Shown in pieces: positions 8,529 to 21,337 of a stretch of 64,000 nucleotides of DNA. Each line of letters starts with the position of its first letter. Positions within the stretch are counted from its first letter, which is position 1. The notes under the pieces are model-generated. The model saw nothing but the letters and a program-made list of their open reading frames with translations, did not search any database and was not told the DNA's origin. The position numbers and the translations under genes were made by a program. The stretch spans positions 1-64,000 of the forward strand of contig OV696605.1 in NCBI GenBank assembly GCA_927797885.1, read 5' to 3'. This stretch comes from Gloeomargaritales cyanobacterium VI4D9. Lineage in GTDB: Bacteria > Cyanobacteriota > Cyanobacteriia > Gloeomargaritales > Gloeomargaritaceae.

Positions 8529-9636
8529 CAGAAGTGTTGAAAGGTAGGTAAAGGCAGAAAAAGAGGGGTCAAAATATGGTATTCTAATTCATATAAACCA
8601 AAACATGAAACAACTATGAAATTCAATTCTTTTCCCGGGATTGTCAAATTTTTACTCAAAGACCTGCCAACTAATGATTATCCAGTTCTAAATTCTCGCT
8701 TATTTTGTTCAATCTGGTTTGCTGGCATTTTAGACAAAGGAATCAACAGTTTACGGGACTTATTTTACCAATTAAATCATGCGGGCATTAAGGTTGACTT
8801 ATCCACGTTTTCTAAGGCGAACAAGACAAGAGACCCACAAATTTTTATGCATCTTTATCATAAATTATTGCATTATATTGAGGAAGCTCATCCTGAAAAG
8901 AGGTTGGTTTTATGTCCTTTTGATGCTACCGTAATACCGCTGATGAGTAAGTTATTTTGGCTCCAAGGCTATCGCCAAGTAAAGTTAATAACCACTTTGA
9001 ATCAAGATACGAAATCTACTGGTCATTTAATTGTTAGTCCTGGACAGGCACATGAGATTAATTTTGGTGAAGATATTGTGAAAATGCTACCGGAAAATGG
9101 AGTCGCAGTCGGGGATAGAGGGTTTTGCAGTCACAAAGTATTTGAACAATTTATCGAAAATGATGCCCTTTTTATTATCCGTATTAAGTCGAATTGGAAA
9201 TGGGATGAAAACTATCATATCACCACAGAACGAGGTAAGGCGAGAGTAGTTTGTTTTGGCAATGTTCAACAGAAAGTAGACTATTATTTAGCTACCAATA
9301 TTCCTGAGGATGTAATGAGTAATGAAGAGATAGGGGAAGCCTATAGACAACGCTGGGCGATAGAGGTACTATGGAAATTTCTAAAGATGAACTTAAAGCT
9401 CGATAAAATGATGAGTAAAAATTTGAATGGAATTACCATTCAAATTTATGTAATTTTAATAGTTTACTTGATATTGCAACTGTTAAAAGTTCCACGGATG
9501 TACGGAAGTAAATTGGCAGATAAGTTCCGATATATACAAATCTTAATACGGCAGGAGTGGAATTTTGTCCATTGGCTCAATCGGGTCGTCCCACGCCTAA
9601 ATATGTAAAGTTTTATTGCAGGATTCAACACTTGTG
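8529..9636 (+). mobile_element. IS4-family insertion sequence
   Basis: About 1.1 kb containing one transposase gene. The proposed ends are the inverted pair CAGAAGTGTTGAA (8529-8541) and TTCAACACTTGTG (9624-9636), matching at 12 of 13 positions. I could not find a convincing target duplication. The right end lies inside an attC site whose left half is missing, so the insertion or a later deletion removed the start of the cassette array. Confidence 0.6.
8616..9608 (+). CDS. IS4-family transposase
   Basis: 330-aa DDE transposase. Seen: the first aspartate in FDATVIPL, the second in AVGDRGF, and the glutamate in the IS4 signature Y-x2-R-x3-E-x6-K, present as YRQRWAIEVLWKFLK. It appears full length and intact. 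Its low GC and codon choice differ from the neighbouring backbone genes. Confidence 0.9.
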   Translation: MKFNSFPGIVKFLLKDLPTNDYPVLNSRLFCSIWFAGILDKGINSLRDLFYQLNHAGIKVDLSTFSKANKTRDPQIFMHLYHKLLHYIEEAHPEKRLVLCPFDATVIPLMSKLFWLQGYRQVKLITTLNQDTKSTGHLIVSPGQAHEINFGEDIVKMLPENGVAVGDRGFCSHKVFEQFIENDALFIIRIKSNWKWDENYHITTERGKARVVCFGNVQQKVDYYLATNIPEDVMSNEEIGEAYRQRWAIEVLWKFLKMNLKLDKMMSKNLNGITIQIYVILIVYLILQLLKVPRMYGSKLADKFRYIQILIRQEWNFVHWLNRVVPRLNM

Positions 9637-9639
9637 CCC

Positions 9640-9699
9640 AGTATTATATTCTGAGCAGTTTCTAAAGCTGTTGGTAGCAGGTGAGCTAAGCCGTTATGT
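9640..9699 (+). other. Truncated attC site (right half)
   Basis: Matches the right half of the 86-bp attC family: CTGAGCAGTTTC..., then GGTAGCAGGTGAGCTAAGCC and the core GTTATGT at 9693-9699. The left core is missing at the IS end. This is the first recognisable site of the array. Confidence 0.7.
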
Positions 9700-9792
9700 T
9701 GCCAGCGCCCAAGTCGTGCTTAGTCAAGGTTGTTGGTGAAGGGGCGCTGGAGTCGGTGGGTAGTGGAGGCGACCCGTACAAAAATTTACACA
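9700..9792 (+). other. ORF-less integron cassette body, copy 1
   Basis: About 93 bases between two attC sites with no reading frame. It begins TGCCAGCGCCC and has the complementary arm GGGGCGCTGG about 30 bases on, so a transcript could fold a long-range stem. Near-identical bodies occur at 12352-12444 (two differences seen) and 13391-13483. Confidence 0.7.
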
Positions 9793-9878
9793 ACATAACA
9801 AGTCGCTGCACCTGACCTGATGCTACACTTTGAGCAGTTTCCTAAGCTACTGGTAGCAGGTGAGCTTAGCCGTTATAC
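9793..9878 (+). other. attC recombination site
   Basis: 86 bp from the left core ACATAAC to the right core GTTATAC. Inner imperfect inverted arms are present: AGTCGCTGCACCTG on the left pairs with GCAGGTGAGCTTAG-type sequence on the right. This is the layout of integron cassette sites. Confidence 0.85.
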
Positions 9879-9949
9879 TGCTGGGCTGTCGGTAGGGCGC
9901 AGCCGCAAGGTTATCAGTTGGGCGATACAAGACTTAATCTAAAATCAGC

Positions 9950-9981
9950 TTGACATTGTACTTGGGTATAAGGTCTATCCT
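9950..9981 (+). promoter_or_regulatory. Candidate MerR-type promoter of the mercury cassette
   Basis: A -35 box TTGACA (9950-9955) and a -10 box TATCCT (9976-9981) are separated by 20 bases. Overlong 19-20 bp spacers are the hallmark of promoters activated by MerR proteins, which untwist the spacer. The spacer holds an imperfect dyad (ACTT...AAGGT). It lies 38 bases before the merR-like start. Confidence 0.6.
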
Positions 9982-10019
9982 TAGAGCATCCAGTTAATTG
10001 CATTGGTGGAGCATTTAGG

Positions 10020-10619
10020 ATGCTGCAAGTTGGCGAAGTCTCTCACAAGCTAGGACTCAATCCGCAAACTCTATATTTCTATGAGCGCATTGGATTAATT
10101 CCAAAGCCGAAGAGAACGGAATCAGGCTACCGCTTGTACGAGGAGCAAGACTTAGAGCGGCTAGCCTTTATTACTCGTGCTAAAGCATTAGGCTTGACCC
10201 TTGATGAGATCAAAGAGATTTTGTTACTTCAGAAGGGCGAAGTGCCGATTTGCCATGAGATTCATTCCAAGCTGGTGAGTAAAGTCAGCCAAATTGAAGC
10301 GGCGATCGCCCAGTTACAGGAATTGAAAAGTGAATTATTACCGCTAATTCAGCATTGTGAAAAAAACTTTTCTGAAACAGGAGAATCCGCAAACTGTATT
10401 GTTTTTCAGGACAAACCTCTATCATTTTGGGCGAGTGTATCAGGAACAGTCATAGTTGCTCTATGTTGTTTTACACCTGTCCTCGCTGTAACCCTAAGCG
10501 CAATTGGTTTAGGGGCTGTTGTCGGCTACCTAGATTATGTTTTGCTACCTGCTTTAGTTGTGATGTGTGTTGTCACATTTCTTTCCTATCGTCGATATCG
10601 TCGTTGTGACAAATGCTAA
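10020..10619 (+). CDS. MerR-type regulator fused to a MerF-like membrane domain
   Basis: 199 aa. Residues 1-70 are a MerR winged helix (GEVSHKLGLNPQTLYFYERI). Residues 75-126 are the dimer helix, with cysteines at 78, 113 and 126 placed much as the three Hg(II)-binding cysteines of MerR (82, 117, 126). Residues 135-199 are two membrane spans with a Cys-Cys pair in CCFTPVLAV, then GYLDYVLLPAL and a C-terminal CDKC, which is the MerF mercury-transporter pattern. I infer a membrane-tethered Hg sensor and transporter in one chain. The MerR and MerF domains read in one frame without a stop. It is first in the cassette, with merTP-like and CopZ-like genes behind it. Confidence 0.85.
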   Translation: MLQVGEVSHKLGLNPQTLYFYERIGLIPKPKRTESGYRLYEEQDLERLAFITRAKALGLTLDEIKEILLLQKGEVPICHEIHSKLVSKVSQIEAAIAQLQELKSELLPLIQHCEKNFSETGESANCIVFQDKPLSFWASVSGTVIVALCCFTPVLAVTLSAIGLGAVVGYLDYVLLPALVVMCVVTFLSYRRYRRCDKC

Positions 10620-10650
10620 TCATCACAGACATTGGTTTGAGGAAATTGAA

Positions 10651-11241
10651 ATGAAACGTCAATGGGAACTGATTGGAGCTTTTTTAGCGTCAATAACTGC
10701 TTCAGTTTGCTGTGTGATCCCCTCGCTTTTAGCAGGGTTGGGCATTGGTGGAGCATGGATTGCCTATTTGACAGCTTTTGCCCCTTATAGACTTATTTTT
10801 ATCAGTATTACTCTAGTATTTCTAGGGTTTTCATTTTACCGAGTTTATCGCCAGCCTCAAGATTGTTCTTCTGGAAGTTTATGTGCTAACCCTCAAAAAA
10901 ATCGAACAATGAAAAAGATTTTAATCGTCTCAACAGCTTTCATTCTGGGTTTACTTGCCTTTCCCTATGCAATCCCCTACGTTTTGGGGACAGCAGCTAT
11001 TAGTCAACGTCATGTACAGATGCAGCGGGTTGTATTGCAAGTGAGTAATATGACCTGTGCGTCTTGTTCTGTGAGCGTTAGAAATAGCTTGTTGCGAGTC
11101 CGAGGGGTTCAAGATGCGATTGTCACCTTCAACCCGCCAGAGGCTGTTATTGTCTATGCCCCTGCTCAGGCTTCTATCCAAGATTTGATCCAAGCGACGA
11201 CCAAGGCTGGCTATCCATCACGTATTAAAAGCACTAAATAA
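10651..11241 (+). CDS. Mercury transporter, MerT-MerP fusion
   Basis: 196 aa. The N-terminal half is MerT-like, with a first span carrying the vicinal pair SVCCVIPSLLAGLG, a second span, and a loop with two cysteines (DCSSGSLC). A third span follows, then an HMA metal-binding domain with MTCASC, equivalent to periplasmic MerP. It should capture Hg(II) outside and pass it across the inner membrane. The start ATG at 10651 follows a GAGGAAA site, 31 bases after the regulator. No mercuric reductase (MerA) is in the cassette or window. Confidence 0.88.
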   Translation: MKRQWELIGAFLASITASVCCVIPSLLAGLGIGGAWIAYLTAFAPYRLIFISITLVFLGFSFYRVYRQPQDCSSGSLCANPQKNRTMKKILIVSTAFILGLLAFPYAIPYVLGTAAISQRHVQMQRVVLQVSNMTCASCSVSVRNSLLRVRGVQDAIVTFNPPEAVIVYAPAQASIQDLIQATTKAGYPSRIKSTK

Positions 11242-11254
11242 AAGGAGTATAGTC

Positions 11255-11740
11255 ATGGGTGAATGCTCTAATCTATCATCATCAACTAAGAGGAATGAAG
11301 CTTGTTGGCAGCGTCTCTGTCCGCAGGACGGTACACAAGGAAAACCTGTCCAACTCATCACTCTAAAAAGCCTGCTAGTACCAGTTGCACTAGAGCAATT
11401 AAATCCAGCGAGTGCTTACGGGTTTTGTCCAAGTCCCAATTGCCTTGTTGTTTACTTTTCTGAGCAGGGACAAACTTTCGCATCTGCCGATCTGAAAGTA
11501 CCTGTTTTTCAGAAAAATGTCGATGAGAATGTTTTTGTTTGCTACTGTTTTGGTTGGAGTCGCCAACGCATTCGTGAAGAGCTGAACCAGTCGGGGAAGA
11601 GCAATGTTGTCGATAGGATTATGACTCACGTTAAAGCAAAACGTTGTGGCTGTGAAGTCAATAATCCTCAAGGCTCTTGCTGTTTAGAGAATGTCAGATC
11701 GGTGGTCAAACAAACAGTTGAAGCATTGGCTAGAGGATAG
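11255..11740 (+). CDS. CopZ-like [2Fe-2S]/zinc-binding metal chaperone
   Basis: 161 aa. It has cysteines spread through both halves: an N-terminal CSNL...ACWQRLC region and a middle SPNCLVVYFS block. The C-terminal VFVCYCFGWSRQRIREEL...KRCGC...GSCC module matches the BFD-like [2Fe-2S] domain of archaeal-type CopZ proteins. The start has a strong AAAGGAG site 8 bases upstream and lies 13 bases after the merTP-like gene, so it is in the same operon. A role in binding the incoming metal ion is inferred. Confidence 0.82.
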   Translation: MGECSNLSSSTKRNEACWQRLCPQDGTQGKPVQLITLKSLLVPVALEQLNPASAYGFCPSPNCLVVYFSEQGQTFASADLKVPVFQKNVDENVFVCYCFGWSRQRIREELNQSGKSNVVDRIMTHVKAKRCGCEVNNPQGSCCLENVRSVVKQTVEALARG

Positions 11741-11744
11741 TGCA

Positions 11745-11831
11745 GTATAACAACCCCAACGCAGCGGACGGACGAAAGCCGCTAGTGTTGAGTTCGATGC
11801 GATCTGCCGCTGCTGATTGGGAACGTTAGCT
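11745..11831 (+). other. attC recombination site of the mercury cassette
   Basis: 87 bp from GTATAAC to GTTAGCT. The arms AACCCCAACGCAGCGG and CCGCTGCTGATTGGGAAC are complementary apart from the extra bases typical of attC. The sequence differs from the 86-bp family of the neighbours, so this cassette has another origin. Confidence 0.8.
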
Positions 11832-12053
11832 GGCTCCGCACCGGGTCTTTGCGCTCGTTCTTCAGGGTTGCCTGTTTGTCCGAAAGCACCCAGGAAATGG
11901 TCGGTTGAGGCAGTGGTTTGAGGGTTATCTGTGGTAGCGAAAACGCCCAGGAGGTTATCGGTGAGGGCAGTCGCGAGGGGCGATCAGTAGTTCCGAAAAC
12001 ACTCAGGAGGCGATCGGTGAGGCGCGGTTGGGGTGGCGATCAGTGCGTGTTCC
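11832..12053 (+). other. ORF-less cassette body with tandem repeats
   Basis: Three imperfect tandem units of about 55-59 bases start at 11879, 11938 and 11992. Each begins CCGAAA or CGAAAA followed by a CNCCCAGGA-type block and ends in a GATCAG or TATCTG block. A frame starting at 11918 runs through the next attC site and is not accepted as a gene. Confidence 0.5.
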
Positions 12054-12138
12054 AGCTAACACGTCATTGGAGCGGACAAGTGAAAGCCCCTGGTGCTAAG
12101 TTTGAGTCCACGGTTGCCGCTCAATTGTGCCGTTATGT
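12054..12138 (+). other. attC recombination site
   Basis: 85 bp from AGCTAAC to GTTATGT. The inner arms ATTGGAGCGG and CCGCTCAAT are complementary with one extrahelical base. The inner sequence is of a different attC type from the 86-bp family. Confidence 0.75.
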
Positions 12139-12265
12139 TGCCAGCGCAATAGCGAGATGGTCGGCGGGGCGAGCTTCTAGATTTTCGGCTTCGTTGGTAG
12201 TTGGTGGGGCGACCCGTGCGCTGGAATCGGTAAAAGTCTGGGGCGATAGGCGTAGAAGTTACACA
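12139..12265 (+). other. ORF-less integron cassette body
   Basis: 127 bases between attC sites. It starts TGCCAGCGCAA and carries a later GCGCTGGAA arm, so it has the same hairpin design as the other ORF-less cassettes but a different sequence in between. No believable reading frame. Confidence 0.6.
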
Positions 12266-12351
12266 ACATAACAAGTCGCTGCACCTGACCTGATGCTACA
12301 CTTTGATCAGTTTTCCAAGCCCCTGGTGGCGGGTGAGCTTAGCCGTTATGT
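12266..12351 (+). other. attC recombination site
   Basis: 86 bp from ACATAAC to GTTATGT. Same family as 9793-9878, with the right arm GGTGGCGGGTGAGCTTAGCC. Confidence 0.85.
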
Positions 12352-12444
12352 TGCCAGCGCCCAAGTCGTGCTTAGTCAGGGTTATTGGTGAAGGGGCGCT
12401 GGAGTCGGTGGGTAGTGGAGGCGACCCGTACAAAAATTTACACA
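12352..12444 (+). other. ORF-less integron cassette body, copy 2
   Basis: Nearly identical to 9700-9792 (two single-base differences seen), with the same hairpin arms. The cassette has been duplicated within the array. Confidence 0.7.
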
Positions 12445-12530
12445 ACATAACAAGTCGCTGCACCTGACCTGATGCTACACTTTGCGCAGTCCTCCAAGCC
12501 CCTGGCGACAGGTGAGCTTAGCCGTTAGAT
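12445..12530 (+). other. attC recombination site
   Basis: 86 bp from ACATAAC to GTTAGAT. 86-bp family, with the right arm GGCGACAGGTGAGCTTAGCC. Confidence 0.85.
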
Positions 12531-12585
12531 TGCAAAACAGACTGAGTGGTAGAATAATTGTGTACCTCTACAATGTGAACTAGAC

Positions 12586-12813
12586 ATGACCAGTCTCTTG
12601 CAAAAAGCATTTACAGAAATCCAGAAACTACCAGACTCACTTCAAGATGAACTTGCTCAGCAATTGCTGAAAGATGTTGAAAGTGAATTAAAATGGCAGG
12701 AAAGCCTTTCAGACGAGGATATTGAACTGGGAAATTTAATAACAATGGCACAAGAAGCCTTAATGGAAGAGCGGGAGGGAAGAACGGAAGATAAAGGCTT
12801 TGGAGAAGAATGA
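12586..12813 (+). CDS. Antitoxin of a RelE/ParE-type pair (putative)
   Basis: 75 residues, acidic, with an N-terminal helix of LLQKAFTEIQKLPDSLQDEL type and a disordered acidic C-terminus, as seen in many cassette-borne and cyanobacterial antitoxins. No DNA-binding fold is obvious. It is called antitoxin by its position: its ATGA overlaps the start of the toxin gene by four bases, and both lie alone in one attC-flanked cassette. Confidence 0.75.
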   Translation: MTSLLQKAFTEIQKLPDSLQDELAQQLLKDVESELKWQESLSDEDIELGNLITMAQEALMEEREGRTEDKGFGEE

Positions 12814-13085
12814 GGTCATCCAGAACCAAGAAATTTCATGACCTTTTTCTAAGTTTGCCCCAAAGAGTACAAGAGACAGCAAAGAAAAACTACAAAATTT
12901 GGAAAGAGAATCCATTTTATCCAAGTTTAGAATTCAAAGAGGTGAAACCAAGAGAAAGAATATGGTCAGTCAGAGTTGGTATCGGATGGCGAGCTTTAGG
13001 AATCATGAAGCCAGATGAAGAAAAAATAGTGTGGTTCTGGGTTGGATCACACTCCGAGTATGACAAGATTCTAAGCAAAAATTAA
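12810..13085 (+). CDS. RelE/HigB-type toxin (putative)
   Basis: 91 residues. The central ERIWSVRVGIGWRALGI strand pattern and the C-terminal IVWFWVGSHSEYDKIL are typical of cytotoxic RelE/HigB-superfamily mRNA interferases. Basic N-terminus, length as expected. It is translationally coupled to the antitoxin at 12586. Toxin-antitoxin cassettes are common stabilisers of large integron arrays. Confidence 0.82.
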   Translation: MRSSRTKKFHDLFLSLPQRVQETAKKNYKIWKENPFYPSLEFKEVKPRERIWSVRVGIGWRALGIMKPDEEKIVWFWVGSHSEYDKILSKN

Positions 13086-13090
13086 GAGCA

Positions 13091-13176
13091 ATCTAACAAC
13101 TCACTGCACCCGTCCTGATGCTAAACTTTAAGCACTACCCAAAACTACTAGTGGCGGGTGAGTTCAACCGTTATGT
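13091..13176 (+). other. attC recombination site of the toxin-antitoxin cassette
   Basis: 86 bp from ATCTAAC, which matches RYYYAAC exactly, to GTTATGT. 86-bp family. It starts six bases after the toxin stop codon. Confidence 0.85.
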
Positions 13177-13314
13177 TGCCAGCGCAACAAGGTTATCTGT
13201 GGGGTTCAGTCGAGAAGTTTTTAGCTATGTTGGGAGATGGTTGGCGTATCGGCGCTGGCAGTTGCACTTAGTGAGAAACTTATTAGCGATCGCCCCACAA
13301 AGAGAGATAACAAA
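13177..13314 (+). other. ORF-less integron cassette body
   Basis: 138 bases. It has the 8-base arms GCCAGCGC and GCGCTGGC, as in the other ORF-less cassettes, and one GCGATCGC octamer (HIP1) at 13286. No credible reading frame. Confidence 0.6.
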
Positions 13315-13390
13315 TCATTGGAGCGGACTGAAAAGTGATATTTTGGTGATAGGCAAGAGTTATCTCAGCCGCTCAATTCAGCCGTTATGT
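13315..13390 (+). other. attC recombination site
   Basis: 76 bp from AGATAAC to GTTATGT. The inner arms ATTGGAGCGG and CCGCTCAATT resemble those of the site at 12054. The left core deviates from RYYYAAC at its second and third positions. Confidence 0.7.
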
Positions 13391-13483
13391 TGCCAGCGCC
13401 AGGGATATGCCTAGTCAAAGTTGTTGGTGAAGGGGCGCTGGAGTCGGTGGGTAGTGGAGGCGATCGGTACAAAAATTCACACA
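13391..13483 (+). other. ORF-less integron cassette body, copy 3
   Basis: Third copy of the cassette at 9700 and 12352, more diverged in its first 25 bases but with the same GGGGCGCTGGAGTCGGTGGG stretch and downstream part. Confidence 0.65.
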
Positions 13484-13569
13484 ACATAACAAATCACTGC
13501 ACCCGACCTGATGCTATACTTTAGTCATTACCCAAAACCTCTGGTGGCGGGTGAGTTCAACCGTTATCT
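13484..13569 (+). other. attC recombination site
   Basis: 86 bp from ACATAAC to GTTATCT. 86-bp family, with the left arm AATCACTGCACCCGACC and the right arm GGTGGCGGGTGAGTTCAACC. It marks the left border of the Argonaute cassette. Confidence 0.85.
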
Positions 13570-13630
13570 CTACAAGAATGGGTATCAATCTTCACCGCTG
13601 CTATAGTTGTTAACAATTTCGTACCTCACC

Positions 13631-14341
13631 ATGAATCCCTTGACAAAACTTGAACAAACCTCGGTAGTACTTAATCGCTACTTAGTAAGACCTCTAGAGG
13701 AAAGAGATTTGACAATTCATGAGTATCAATGTCATTTTGATCAACTCCCACAGCAAGGCGATGAACAAAGAGCAATTTCTAGTATTTGTTACAAACTAGG
13801 AGTCACTGCGGTTAGATTAGGCAGTCGAATTATCACTAGAGAAGAAGTTAGTCCTACAAAGATGAGGAGCGATGATTGGAAGTTATCTAAGATAGCTACC
13901 CGAAAATTAGACTGTAGTAATACTTACGAAAGAAAAGCTTTGGAAAGCCTTGAGCGTAGGGTTTTAGAGCAAAGACTAAAAAATTCCTTTAATAAAACTG
14001 AGATTGAAAGAGACTCAGAAGGTGGACTGATTTGGTGGATTACAGGTCATGAGGGTGCAGAGAAATGTGGAGATGGTTGGGAAGTACACAGAGGGAGAAG
14101 AATAGATGTCGTTATTGACTCAGATGGCAACCTCTACCTAGAAATCGACATACATCATCGATTCTATACACCTTGGACACTCCATCAATGGCTAGAAGAG
14201 TATCCTGATATACCTATCAGTTATGTTAGGAACACATATAAAGATAAAAACAATAATTACATTAGGGCACCTCTATTTATTCAAAATATGAGAACGAAAC
14301 ACAAAAACAGCATAGCATTGCTCAGTACTTTTTTGTACTAA
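13631..14341 (+). CDS. Argonaute N-terminal fragment (N, L1 and part of PAZ)
   Basis: The first 211 codons are native Argonaute sequence, starting MNPLTKLEQTSVVLNRYLVR; the last 25 or so residues are read out of the IS left end and stop at 14339-14341. It lacks MID and PIWI, so it cannot bind the 5' end of a guide or cleave. A TTG at 13607 is in frame upstream, but the ATG is preferred. Confidence 0.8.
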   Translation: MNPLTKLEQTSVVLNRYLVRPLEERDLTIHEYQCHFDQLPQQGDEQRAISSICYKLGVTAVRLGSRIITREEVSPTKMRSDDWKLSKIATRKLDCSNTYERKALESLERRVLEQRLKNSFNKTEIERDSEGGLIWWITGHEGAEKCGDGWEVHRGRRIDVVIDSDGNLYLEIDIHHRFYTPWTLHQWLEEYPDIPISYVRNTYKDKNNNYIRAPLFIQNMRTKHKNSIALLSTFLY

Positions 14342-15507
14342 GATGACTGGGTTTTATAGATTGCTGTAGATATGATTGAAAAGAGACTTAGTAGGGGGTC
14401 AAAACTCACAGATTATCGGCCAGGGACTGCCGCTCCCAAAACGCATAACGGCGGAAATTATAAGCCAAATTTTTCAACCCAATTGCCGCTTCTACTCTGG
14501 TTTTACCAATCAGACGCATGAATTTACCCCCAAGACACATCACCCACTGACCAAATACGTGTTCCACCTTGGCTCTCACTTGAGATTTGATGCGATTCTT
14601 TTCATTTTGCTCTGCGGTTAGGGGCTGATTTCGGTAGCCTTTTTCATGGATGTGACTGGTAAATCCAATCCTGGCTAACGTCCATTCTAAATCCGTGCTG
14701 TGATAGGCACTATCTCCCCAGATTTCCGACCCATCAATATCCACCAGTTGACTGAATACTTGTGAGTCATGCACGGAGGCATCCGTGACCACATAATGAC
14801 GCACAAAACCATATTTTACATCCACACTGATATGATTTTTATAGCCAAAATAGCTGACACCATTTTTCTTTACCCAACGGGCATCTCTATCCTTTTGCCG
14901 TAAAACCTGGGGTTTTTCCTCCCATTGCTTAGGAATTTTCCCTTCCTTTACTTCTTGATTTTCTTGCCGAGTATTTCGTTGGACTGGCACGGGAATGAGA
15001 GTGGCATCCACAATCTGACCAACTTCGACAATATATCCTTTTTCTCTCAGGTAATTATCAAAGTGAGCAAATACTTCTTTGACTAGATCGTGCTTGGCGA
15101 GATTATCCCGAAATAGCCAGACCGTTTTGGCATCAGGGATAGCGTCTTCGATACCCAATCCTAGGAATTCCATGAACGAGATACGGTCATTCACTTGAAA
15201 CTCGAGTTCATCGTCACTAAGGGCATACATTTGTTGGAGAATCAACAATTTAAACATCACAATGACGTCGGTGGGTTTTCGACCCGCATTACTCTTTCTT
15301 TCCTTGTCATATATGGTTTCTAATATGGGTCGGAAATCTTCCCAGTTAATATTTTCATTGAGCCACTTCAGCATGGGCTTTTTCTGATTGAGTTTTTCCC
15401 GCCGCTCTTGCTCATCCCAAAATCCTTTTTGACCCATTTTCCCTCTCCACGTCGTTAATACTAATTATCTCACAAATCCCTCCCAAAATCAATTAATAGA
15501 GGTGCCC
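14265..15507 (-). mobile_element. IS5-family insertion sequence inside the Argonaute gene
   Basis: 1,243 bp with perfect 13-base terminal inverted repeats, GGGCACCTCTATT and AATAGAGGTGCCC, and a 4-base target duplication ATTA at 14261-14264 and 15508-15511. It carries one intact transposase on the minus strand. The ends are confirmed by the exact rejoining of the Argonaute frame and by the identical IS end at 1-33. Confidence 0.95.
14406..15437 (-). CDS. IS5-family transposase
   Basis: 343-aa DDE transposase. It has an N-terminal DUF772-like region (GRKPTDVIVMFKLLILQQMY), then catalytic-core motifs QIVDATLIPVPV, IWGDSAYHS and the glutamate in KSQVRAKVEHVFGQW. The start ATG has a GAGAGGGA site a few bases upstream. 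No frameshift, so the element may be active. Confidence 0.93.
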   Translation of the reverse strand: MGQKGFWDEQERREKLNQKKPMLKWLNENINWEDFRPILETIYDKERKSNAGRKPTDVIVMFKLLILQQMYALSDDELEFQVNDRISFMEFLGLGIEDAIPDAKTVWLFRDNLAKHDLVKEVFAHFDNYLREKGYIVEVGQIVDATLIPVPVQRNTRQENQEVKEGKIPKQWEEKPQVLRQKDRDARWVKKNGVSYFGYKNHISVDVKYGFVRHYVVTDASVHDSQVFSQLVDIDGSEIWGDSAYHSTDLEWTLARIGFTSHIHEKGYRNQPLTAEQNEKNRIKSQVRAKVEHVFGQWVMCLGGKFMRLIGKTRVEAAIGLKNLAYNFRRYAFWERQSLADNL

Positions 15508-17079
15508 ATTAGTTGGCAGTATGAAGGAGTATCTGACCAATTGCCAGAACAAGTCATGATAGAAGGGTTGGGTGTCAGTCTAGCAGATTACCATCGTAAC
15601 AATGGAGCTACTGACGCAGAAATAAATAATTCTCGTGTTGTGCTTGTTAAAAGAGCCAATGACTGGAAAGCAAAGCCTGTAGCACATCTATCTCAAAGAC
15701 TATCACCAAGCTTAACAATGGAGATGCTGGCAAACATTGCTGAAAGTGGAAAAGAAAGTAATGAAATCAAAGAAGTTTTTGGGTTCATTAGAAAAAGTTT
15801 AGATGTTCGCATAAAGGAATCCAAAGAGACCGCACAGACAATCCTTAAGGAGATTTATAGAATTTCCCGCAAAGCTGAAGCTACAAGGGTAGATGGATAT
15901 ATTTTGCCAACAGTCAAACTACTGGCATTTAACGATCAGCAAGTAGATAAGGTTGCTAAAGTCCGATACAAGGGATGTGCCAGAGTAGGTGAAACAAAGT
16001 TTGGCTGTCTTAATCTTTACAATGAAAAGTACCAATATCCTGAAGAAGTGCGTAAATGTTTGTTGGAAATTGCAAACAATAGCAACACGACGATAGGAAT
16101 AGACTCCTATCGTGCACAACAAGATATTCCTGAGAGTGAACTAGACCAACAAATGTTCTGGCAAAACTGGTCTGATGAAGGCATTAAAACAGTTTTAGTG
16201 GTAATGCCATGGTCACCCAATGAGCGCAAACAAAAAATTCGGGTGCAAGCACTTCAAGCAGGAATAGCTACTCAGTTCATTGTGCCTAAGCCAAGAGCTG
16301 ATCAATATAAAGCCTTAAATGTTGTTTTAGGACTTTTGTGTAAAGCTGGTTGGCAACCCATACGCCTAGAGCCTTTGGATCATCCTGATTGTGCTGATCT
16401 AATTATTGGTTTTGATACAGGAACCAATCGAGAGCTTTATTATGGCACTTCTGCATTTGCAGTCCTTGCGGACGGGCAAAGCTTAGGATGGGAGTTGCCT
16501 GATGTTCAACGAGGAGAAACCTTTTCTGGAAAAGCGATTTGGCAAACGGTATCAAAGCTAGTTCTTAAATTTTATGACAATTGCAAGCGTTACCCCAAAA
16601 AACTACTTCTGATGAGAGATGGATTAGTTCAGGAAGGAGAATTTCAGCAAACTATAGAAGAGCTTGCAAAGAAAAATATAGCTGTTGATGTTGTTGGAGT
16701 CCGCAAAAGCGGTGCTGGAAGAATGGGGAAAGAGGATATTAATGCAAATGGGGAAGTGGTATACCGTGATGCCAAAATTGGTACCGTCATTTTTACTCCA
16801 AAAGAAAAGTCATTTACTTTAGTAACCAGTCAACCAGTTAATCAGAATATTGGCAGTGTAAGACCCCTTCGGGTAGTTCATGAATACGGCAATACATCTC
16901 TGGAAATGATTGCTTTGCAAACTTACCATCTATCTCAGCTGCACCCTGCTAGCGGGTTTCGCTCCTGTCGCTTACCTTGGGTATTGCATCTTGCAGACAG
17001 AAGTAGTAAAGAGTTTCAACGCATAGGGCAGATTAGTATTTTGCAAAATATCAGTCGTGAAAAATTAATTGCTGTCTGA
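15502..17079 (+). CDS. Argonaute C-terminal fragment (L2, MID and PIWI)
   Basis: From 15511 the sequence is native Argonaute, 522 residues to the stop. It holds the MID domain and a complete D-E-D-D PIWI site. An in-frame GTG lies inside the IS inverted repeat at 15502, but no good ribosome binding site precedes it, so translation is doubtful. If expressed it would resemble a PAZ-less Argonaute. Confidence 0.8.
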   Translation: MPISWQYEGVSDQLPEQVMIEGLGVSLADYHRNNGATDAEINNSRVVLVKRANDWKAKPVAHLSQRLSPSLTMEMLANIAESGKESNEIKEVFGFIRKSLDVRIKESKETAQTILKEIYRISRKAEATRVDGYILPTVKLLAFNDQQVDKVAKVRYKGCARVGETKFGCLNLYNEKYQYPEEVRKCLLEIANNSNTTIGIDSYRAQQDIPESELDQQMFWQNWSDEGIKTVLVVMPWSPNERKQKIRVQALQAGIATQFIVPKPRADQYKALNVVLGLLCKAGWQPIRLEPLDHPDCADLIIGFDTGTNRELYYGTSAFAVLADGQSLGWELPDVQRGETFSGKAIWQTVSKLVLKFYDNCKRYPKKLLLMRDGLVQEGEFQQTIEELAKKNIAVDVVGVRKSGAGRMGKEDINANGEVVYRDAKIGTVIFTPKEKSFTLVTSQPVNQNIGSVRPLRVVHEYGNTSLEMIALQTYHLSQLHPASGFRSCRLPWVLHLADRSSKEFQRIGQISILQNISREKLIAV

Positions 17080-17100
17080 CAATTGCAATCAGTTGAGTAG

Positions 17101-17186
17101 AGATAACAAATCACTGCACCCGACCTGATGCTATAATCCAACCATTATCCAAAACTACTGGTGGCGGGTGAGTTCAGCCGTTAGCC
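17101..17186 (+). other. attC recombination site of the Argonaute cassette
   Basis: 86 bp from AGATAAC to GTTAGCC. The inner sequence is of the 86-bp family (AATCACTGCACCCGACC and GGTGGCGGGTGAGTTCAGCC). It starts 21 bases after the Argonaute stop codon, as expected for a cassette's own attC. Confidence 0.85.
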
Positions 17187-17203
17187 CGCTTGGGAGAACA
17201 CAG

Positions 17204-18118
17204 ATGCAGCAACAAGACCGTTTCCGTGGGTGTCTTCTCGGTCTTGCCGTTGGGGATGCTATCGGCACTACCGTTGAGTTTCGCCCACGGGGAAGCTTTA
17301 CACCGCTGACGGATATGGTCGGTGGAGGTCCATTCCATCTCCGTGCAGGCCAGTGGACTGATGATACTTCCATGGCGCTTTGCCTGGCAACCAGCCTTGT
17401 TGAGTGCAACGGGTTCGACGCTCATGATCAAATGAGGCGTTATTGCAAGTGAGCCGAGACGGGTTACTTGAGCAGCACTGGGACATGTTTCGACATAGGT
17501 TCTACGACCGCCTCTGCATTGCGCAGGTTTCGCCAGACAGGAAACCCCTTTGCCGGGTCAAGCGATCCGCGCTCAGCCGGCAATGGATGCATTATGCGGT
17601 TAGCGCCGATTCCCATGTTCTTCTTCCCGGACCTGGGAGCGGCAGAACGATTTGCAGCGGAGAGTTCCCGAATTACTCACGGTGCGGCGGAATGCCTAGA
17701 CGCTTGTCGTCTTTTGGCGCGGATCATTTGTCGGGCATTATCTGGCAGCTCAAAGGATGAGGTTGCCCTGGGTGACAGCCAGACATTCGTGGGGGCCGAG
17801 AAGATCGTTGCGATTGCCCGTGGAGCCTACCGTCAAAAGCCGGAAGATGAGATTCGCGGCTCCGGGTATGTGGTGGACAGTCTGGAAGCGGCGATGTGGT
17901 GTTTCGTTCGTTCCCACAGTTTTGAGGAAGCGGTCCTCATGGCGGCAAATCTGGGCGACGATGCCGACACAACCGCTACGGTATGTGGGCAAGTGGCAGG
18001 AGCGTACTATGGTGTACAAGGAATTCCTGTCGCCTGGCTAGAACGGCTTGCGTTACATTTGGAGATTACGGAGCTCGCTGACCGGCTGTACAGCGCGAGC
18101 AAGAAGAGAGCGGGCTAA
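17204..18118 (+). pseudogene. ADP-ribosylglycohydrolase with an in-frame stop
   Basis: ADP-ribosylglycohydrolase family (DraG/ARH-like), which removes ADP-ribose from proteins or other targets. The frame is continuous from the ATG at 17204 to 18118 except for a TGA at 17450-17452, where the family usually has tryptophan (YCKW), so a single TGG-to-TGA change fits. Metal-site motifs are intact: [30 protein letters not shown], and NLGDDADTTATVCGQ near the C-terminus. The start lies 17 bases after the attC core with a GGGAGA site, typical of a cassette gene. GC-rich, unlike the Argonaute cassette. Confidence 0.85.
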
Positions 18119-18177
18119 CCCGCCGCTCCAGCCGACGCCGCCTTCGGCGGGCGCGGCTGAGCGGCAAACCGTTATGC
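18113..18177 (+). other. attC recombination site of the glycohydrolase cassette
   Basis: 65 bp from GGCTAAC to GTTATGC. The arms CCGCCGCTC and GAGCGGC flank an inner GC-rich stem. This short, GC-rich type resembles attC sites of gammaproteobacterial environmental integrons. The stop codon of the preceding gene lies inside the left core. Confidence 0.82.
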
Positions 18178-21250: not shown

Positions 21251-21337
21251 ACATAACAAGTCACTGCACCCGACCTTGGGGTAGATTGTTGGCTGGGATC
21301 CCAGATTTAGAGTGGCGGGTGAGTTCAGCCGATCATG
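21251..21337 (+). other. Damaged attC site at the array's right edge
   Basis: The left core ACATAAC, the arm AGTCACTGCACCCGACC and the right arm GTGGCGGGTGAGTTCAGCC belong to the 86-bp family. The right core reads GATCATG instead of GTTATGT: homology stops right after the G at which integron integrases cut. It is joined there to the inside of a tnpB gene. Confidence 0.65.

Follow-up and report, generated by a model that had tools for sequence, protein, structure and literature searches.

A long prokaryotic Argonaute as an integron gene cassette, broken by an insertion sequence, in a Gloeomargaritales cyanobacterium

The first 64,000 nucleotides of contig OV696605.1 of Gloeomargaritales cyanobacterium VI4D9 (GCA_927797885.1) were analysed as a whole, and this stretch is referred to here as the window. 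Between two attC sites on its forward strand lies a segment of 3,617 bp (13564-17180, + strand), including an insertion sequence (IS), in which the sole recognised native gene encodes a long prokaryotic Argonaute (pAgo). It is very probable that this segment is an integron cassette bearing one long TtAgo-like pAgo with four catalytic residues, that it has been spread by integrases between cyanobacterial lineages, and that it was later broken by the IS. An earlier interpretation drawn from the letters alone, hereafter the sequence-only reading, had placed such a cassette at 13570-17186; a cassette does lie there, although its exact limits had to be corrected to 13564-17180. Besides the window's own genome (G000; 3.16 Mb, one contig), the comparison involves G007, a genome of the same genus (locus L056), UBA999 (L023) and Thermosynechococcus sp. 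M98_K2018_005, or M98 (L024 and L025). That the window's genome is cyanobacterial is borne out by its coding for the photosystem I proteins PsaA/PsaB (locus L029) and by its nearest named Argonautes, which come from cyanobacteria. The features that matter most are the following.

13488-13565, + strand: attC of the preceding short cassette, whose GTT is the recombination point opening the pAgo cassette; core AAC...GTT; 98.7 bits
13564-17180, + strand: pAgo integron cassette; its start is complementary to its own attC R'' over 11 bases; same ends in L023, L024 and L056
13631-14264, + strand: N-terminal piece of the Argonaute gene; the open frame continues into the IS to 14341
14261-14264: ATTA target-site duplication, left copy
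14265-15507, - strand: IS of 1,243 bp with inverted ends, ATTA duplication and transposase
14406-15437, - strand: IS transposase, 343 aa, DDE_Tnp_1 and DUF772 (Pfam)
15508-15511: ATTA target-site duplication, right copy
15511-17079, + strand: C-terminal piece of the Argonaute gene, covering the greater part of PAZ and the stretch that aligns with TtAgo MID-PIWI; open reading frame (ORF) listed at 15502-17079, with its GTG in the IS end
17105-17182, + strand: the pAgo cassette's own attC, with its R'' box GTAGAGATAAC ending at 17107; core AAC...GTT; 95.5 bits

An interrupted Argonaute gene

The two pieces of the gene together span the whole PADLOC pAgo profile PDLC02387 (N-terminal piece, profile positions 2-192, 263.7 bits; C-terminal piece, 189-672, 765.3 bits), against which the intact protein scores 1013.8 bits. 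The Pfam PAZ_3 match is divided by the IS into model positions 1-26 and 23-88, the first part scoring 26.3, just below the cut-off of 27. Among solved structures the best relative is TtAgo of Thermus thermophilus, at 203.1 bits over PAZ-MID-PIWI. The Pfam Piwi model was reported neither for the two pieces (E<=0.01) nor for the intact relative (E<=0.001), and the NCBIfam Argonaute model scored far below its cut-off (18.6 against 700). MID-PIWI is assigned from the PADLOC profile and the TtAgo match. Length and homology along N-PAZ-MID-PIWI identify the protein as a long pAgo.

Compared with the intact protein of UBA999 (733 aa), the pieces match residues 1-212 at 86% and residues 210-733 at 87% identity without a stop. 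The tetrad D513, E547, D581 and D707 (numbered as in the sequence-only reading) is complete. These residues are invariant across the rows of alignment A2 and, counted along the pairwise alignment, fall on TtAgo D478, E512, D546 and D660, which we take to be the catalytic tetrad of that enzyme. Homology predicts that intact copies are guide-dependent nucleases directed against incoming DNA. A structure prediction of the intact UBA999 protein from a six-row alignment reached a mean predicted local distance difference test (pLDDT) score of 49.7 and was not used.

Interruption by a 1,243-bp IS at 14265-15507 between ATTA copies, another element of the initial proposal, is confirmed by the DDE transposase and by inverted ends whose first 17 bases differ at one position. 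The end sequence recurs at other loci of the window's genome. A DDE transposase, inverted ends and a short target duplication make this an IS5-like element, IS5 being presumably the right family name. The insertion falls inside PAZ, and the pieces carry no other stop. A search of related genomes for the cassette free of the IS found the frame uninterrupted in G007, UBA999 and M98; the insertion is thus most simply placed after capture, in agreement with the suggestion that this copy was inactivated once it had become a cassette.

One might suppose that the split Argonaute still works as two pieces, with translation of the C-terminal one (the rest of PAZ, MID and PIWI) starting at GTG 15502, inside the end of the IS. 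An open frame of 525 codons begins inside that end and retains all four catalytic residues. We nevertheless regard this as very unlikely, since the break falls inside PAZ and the gene is whole in the three other hosts of the cassette.

attC sites and cassette closure

Seventeen attC sites (six in the window, seven elsewhere in its genome and four in three relatives) align gap-free at 78 columns; three of the 20 sites listed were left out, two because they are degenerate (21255 and 50152) and the third a site of 51 bases in L032. The structure of R box, spacer, L box and one extrahelical base is paired in 97.1% of 238 cells, and 5 of its 14 pairs show changes on both sides. None of 500 shuffles was as good on pairing or on both-sided changes. 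From the same 17 sites a covariance model, R1, was built. In 230,619 bases it returned 15 hits at E<=0.1, of which 11 lie in the window, and the sites at either end of the Argonaute cassette are among those that R1 finds. The 98.7 and 95.5 bits that the two flanking sites score with the model follow by construction, because both sites belong to its training set. A 28-base attC motif (at most three mismatches) matches seven times in the window and never in 100 shuffles. The hallmarks of attC, an imperfect palindrome at the 3' end that comprises R and L boxes as well as an extrahelical base, were thus recovered by covariation and by the R1 model. Inverted-repeat searches with a minimum arm of 12 and then 7 found no arms in the attC stretches.

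Folds of single-stranded DNA, computed for five bottom strands, were weaker. Of the two window sites, the upstream one forms both the R and the L stem and the downstream one the L stem alone, while the attC sites of G007 and UBA999 gave z values of -0.13, -3.95 and -5.19. Covariation is the better evidence for attC here, because the single-strand folds of the window sites are matched by many shuffles.

A further line of evidence comes from the ends of the cassettes. A genuine cassette begins with bases that complete its own attC's R box. Across the ten cassettes of 9694-18171 this closure extends over 9, 10, 9, 9, 9, 10, 5, 9, 11 and 11 bases, that is, over at least 9 bases in nine of the ten, and the Argonaute cassette closes as a circle over 11. 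The sum of 92 compares with a shuffled mean of 57 and was reached by 8 of 200,000 shuffles. Of the 120 pairings possible for the five cassettes whose starts are distinct, the true one alone attains its closure sum; mispairings of these five agree over at most 6 bases in 44 of 45 cases and over 9 in the remaining one. The common ends of the short cassettes explain why, when all ten are mispaired, 17 of 90 combinations agree over 9 bases. Four attC sites (11749, 12058, 13309 and 18117) were set by eye, and R1 also recovers those at 12058 and 13309. Closure is less independent for cassettes that touch 11749-11827 or 18117-18173, since these two were set by eye and missed by R1.

Spread between lineages and the fate of the integrase

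A search for related Argonaute loci returned six. In L056 of G007, attC sites stand on both sides of an uninterrupted Argonaute with a closure of 11 bases, and the cassettes of L023 and L024 both start with GTTATCTCTACAAGAAT and again close over 11 bases. The whole cassette measures 2,371 bp in G007 and 2,359 bp in UBA999. The same unit therefore recurs among other neighbours: in UBA999 and M98 both sides differ from those of the window, and in G007 a similar short cassette precedes the pAgo cassette and a different cassette follows it. Before the Argonaute there is a short cassette in the window and in G007, an attI-like region in UBA999, and in M98 an attC of another type, which matches an attC of the window's genome in 67 of 78 columns. 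A second Argonaute of M98 (L025) lies about 13.8 kb from the first on the same contig, with an identical 2,181-nt ORF and a replaced 5' end, which is either a duplication or an assembly error; it has no cassette start and was not counted as a further case.

In UBA999, the 92 bp leading up to the start of the pAgo cassette share 75% identity (E 1.4e-11) with the stretch immediately upstream of an intact integron integrase gene on another contig (TIGR02249, 467.9 bits against a cut-off of 265), and the similarity ends at the crossover. By its anatomy, the UBA999 cassette sits in the first position of an integron. That the Argonaute is an integron cassette, as originally proposed, is accordingly borne out by attC covariation, by closure, by the same ends in three further genomes and, in one of them, by a putative attI.

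Sequence divergence suggests that the gene has also crossed between lineages. From the window, the C-terminal piece is 92.7% identical to that of G007, 87.4% to UBA999 and 82.0% to M98 (N-terminal piece, 90.0% to G007). PurL, recognised by its AIRS and FGAR-AT linker domains, is 96% identical to G007 and 64% to both UBA999 and M98; a phosphorylase gives 99% with G007 and 62% with M98, and finds no match in UBA999 at E<=1e-50. Along the tree, the Argonaute of the window is 0.14 away from that of UBA999 and 0.24 from that of M98; for PurL the path to M98 is 1.01, UBA999 not being among the five nearest rows listed. With the tree rooted at its midpoint, a single clade unites the four cassette copies (91/92 support, below the star limit of the tool), and dN/dS among them is 0.13-0.38. 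Next to the UBA999 copy, TruB is 42% identical to that of the window's genome, and LpxB beside the M98 copy is 55% identical; these stretches are thus not contamination from the window's genus. We infer from site anatomy and from the contrast between Argonaute and core genes that the spread was integrase-mediated.

Could the gene instead have been inherited vertically in these cyanobacteria, its attC flanks acquired later and the cassette never moved? The window and G007 belong to one genus, have the short upstream cassette in common and cluster in the tree (97/97), and the gene occurs in two of the eight genomes of the order. For UBA999 and M98 such a history fares badly: their Argonautes are 82-87% identical to the window's against 64% for PurL and 42-55% for TruB and LpxB on the same stretches, the neighbours of the cassette differ, and in UBA999 it is placed at a putative attI. 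Vertical descent without movement is therefore very unlikely, and movement between lineages is the conclusion that we draw from the 87 and 82% identities set against 64%. Within the genus, inheritance may be vertical, because the short upstream cassette is shared.

Integrase-mediated spread holds for one Argonaute clade. That Argonaute in general spreads as a cassette is unsupported, since loci L026-L028 and L050-L055 have no attC of this type. Closure of at least 8 bases was absent from L026, L027, L028, L052, L053 and L055 (it was not computed for L050 and L051). Relatives at E<=1e-20 occur in 8 of 386 genomes drawn from the phylum, the window's own included. A pattern scan of IMG/VR found no relative, and the plasmid-borne relatives found are mostly from Thermus (33 of 45 records), each less than 60% identical.

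The window's genome itself retains only a fragment of an integron integrase (model positions 195-314, 200.8 bits) at G000:C1:953111-953470, or about 15112-15471 of L029. A transposase ORF whose DNA is identical to window 8616-9608 immediately precedes it, and a PsaA/PsaB gene follows. In G007, a fragment covering positions 224-314 remains beside the same PsaA/PsaB gene. No genome of the eight in the order has an intact integron integrase that passes the cut-off, G006 being partly masked and so not judged, and a complete integron with intact intI and attI was not found in the window's genome. Because only integrase fragments remain, the window array is probably no longer served by an integrase of its own and is probably stranded.

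These observations suggest the following course of events. Integron integrases would excise the pAgo cassette through its folded, single-stranded attC, and the excised cassette would be inserted at attI or attC sites, so that the Argonaute could travel as a unit of one gene among lineages of cyanobacteria. Where the copy is intact, it would serve its host as a guide-dependent nuclease against incoming DNA. In the window's genome, a DDE IS afterwards broke the gene inside PAZ, and the loss of the integrase to a fragment beside another IS would have left the array stranded.

Several observations weigh against this account. The attC structure was drawn from the same related sites and is hence favoured over the slid-structure controls, which were paired in at most 49.2% of cells; further pair types were not outstanding (341 of 500 shuffles as high); and the single-strand folds of the window sites (z -1.33 and -0.96) are no better than those of many shuffles. 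R1 misses the array sites at 11749-11827 and 18117-18173. Integron core sites follow the consensus GTTRRRY, which the core site GTTATCT fits only in part. The putative attI is represented by two sequences from one assembly, and a separate N-terminal integrase piece in UBA999, on the strand of the Argonaute and about 5 kb upstream of it, is unusual in place and orientation. Both UBA999 and M98 are metagenome assemblies, and a truncated attC follows the M98 copy in L024. R1 sites are absent from L026-L028 and from L050-L055, the latter covering at most about 1.5 kb on each side. The short upstream cassette shared by G007 and the window also belongs here, as does the lack of a promoter before pAgo in window 13400-13700 and on the + strand of L023 7150-7420. 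The latter scan gave one match on the - strand, with 1.2 expected. By eye, TTGCGT-N17-TATAAT stands upstream of the UBA999 integrase and TTGCGT-N17-GATAAT before pAgo; we do not claim these as promoters.

The remaining alternative, that the attC-like sequences are a dispersed repeat family of the genus, unrelated to integrons, which flanks an ordinary chromosomal Argonaute by chance, draws on the scatter of R1 sites (at least five of the eight genomes of the order, with at least 22 sites in G000 and at least 27 in G006) and is extremely unlikely in view of the cassette-specific closure, the several sequence types built on one AAC...GTT plan, the intact integrase with a homologous adjacent site in UBA999, and the recurrence of these cassette ends in four genomes.

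Known systems, neighbouring cassettes and large cargo

Anti-phage cassettes in integrons have reportedly been described by Darracq, Getz and Kieffer (all 2025), as relayed in reviews. The reviews place such cassettes in both chromosomal and mobile integrons (PMC12409362, PMC12926258, PMC13064858), and one of them describes integron defence genes as streamlined to small size. The window resembles these cases in holding a defence gene between the attC sites of an array, but differs in that its host is a cyanobacterium and its cargo a long pAgo of about 2.2 kb; the passages available name no pAgo cargo. The attC sites of cyanobacterial chromosomes form a recognised class with a model of their own among 11 taxon models (PMC8352920); the window sites are likened to them by class and not by direct comparison.

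Among Argonautes, TtAgo resembles the window protein over PAZ-MID-PIWI, with aligned catalytic residues; a difference is that the plasmid-borne relatives found are mostly from Thermus. SeAgo of Synechococcus elongatus, likened here by description and not by sequence, is a cyanobacterial pAgo nuclease that is described as preventing the maintenance of RSF1010 and lowering transformation, and ago mutants arise under plasmid selection; the main text of that paper does not contain the word integron (PMC10653904). In T. thermophilus HB27, the pAgo gene TTP0026 is inactivated by ISTth7, a loss that has been linked to higher transformability, and the passages available describe no integron for that gene (PMC6352166). 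As with the window, an IS breaks a pAgo gene in that strain, and by analogy the loss of Argonaute in the window's genome may have been favoured.

A long Argonaute as integron cassette cargo was not found in the open-access literature searched, as far as its accessible text goes. Integron defence cassettes and pAgo are each known; within that literature, the combination of the two is new, here with a large single gene as cargo in cyanobacteria and a probable three-gene cargo next to it. Argonautes of this kind are rare and patchy in the phylum and in the order, and the cassette offers a concrete, testable vehicle for such a pattern. It points to a route by which an Argonaute defence gene could move between distantly related hosts.

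The remaining sites and cassettes of the window are listed below.

9694-9872, + strand: short cassette without an assigned gene; closure 9
9873-11825, + strand: mercury cassette (MerR and MerF-like fusion, MerT/MerP-like, CopZ-N-like); attC 11749-11827; closure 10
11826-12132, + strand: cassette without an assigned gene; attC 12058-12134 of divergent type (34.3 bits); closure 9
12133-12345, + strand: short cassette without an assigned gene; closure 9
12346-12524, + strand: short cassette without an assigned gene; closure 9
12525-13170, + strand: cassette with a probable toxin-antitoxin pair, second gene ParE_like; closure 10
13171-13384, + strand: short cassette; start and R'' box agree over 5 bases only
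13385-13563, + strand: short cassette directly before pAgo; closure 9
17181-18171, + strand: ADP-ribosylglycohydrolase cassette; short attC 18117-18173; closure 11
21255-21333, + strand: degenerate attC; 57.1 bits
50152-50229, - strand: degenerate attC on the other strand; 75.9 bits

In the mercury cassette, the MerR regulator is fused to a MerF-like membrane part. The probable toxin-antitoxin pair occupies 12586-13085, where the ParE-like gene follows a small ORF without a family match. Short cassettes of 179-214 bp without an assigned gene occur five times in 9694-13563, each opening with GTTATGTTGCCAGCGC. The R'' box of the cassette at 13171-13384 matches the start of the Argonaute cassette over 9 bases, and this cassette is perhaps recombinant. 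The ADP-ribosylglycohydrolase (17204-18118) is spread over two ORFs and is possibly a broken gene.

In G007, the Argonaute cassette is followed by a probable cassette of 8,933 bp (G007:C1:1731475-1740407, from 11475 of L056 to 5410 of L087) with a closure of 10 bases, and type I-D cas genes lie on the other side. This closure discriminates by one base only, because the start of the interval shares 9 bases with that of the Argonaute cassette. Genes fill the interval from about 50 bases past its start to about 36 before its terminal attC (81.7 bits), and its ORFs are DruF-like (86.9 bits), DruL-like (43.3 bits) and DruE-like (1,433.5 bits), the first two matches being modest. On balance, we favour the view that cyanobacterial integrons carry large antiviral systems, the pAgo of about 2.2 kb and in G007 a three-gene Druantia-like system as an 8.9-kb cassette, with the integrase able to build a defence island cassette by cassette. 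If true, this would run counter to the notion that defence systems in integrons have to be small.

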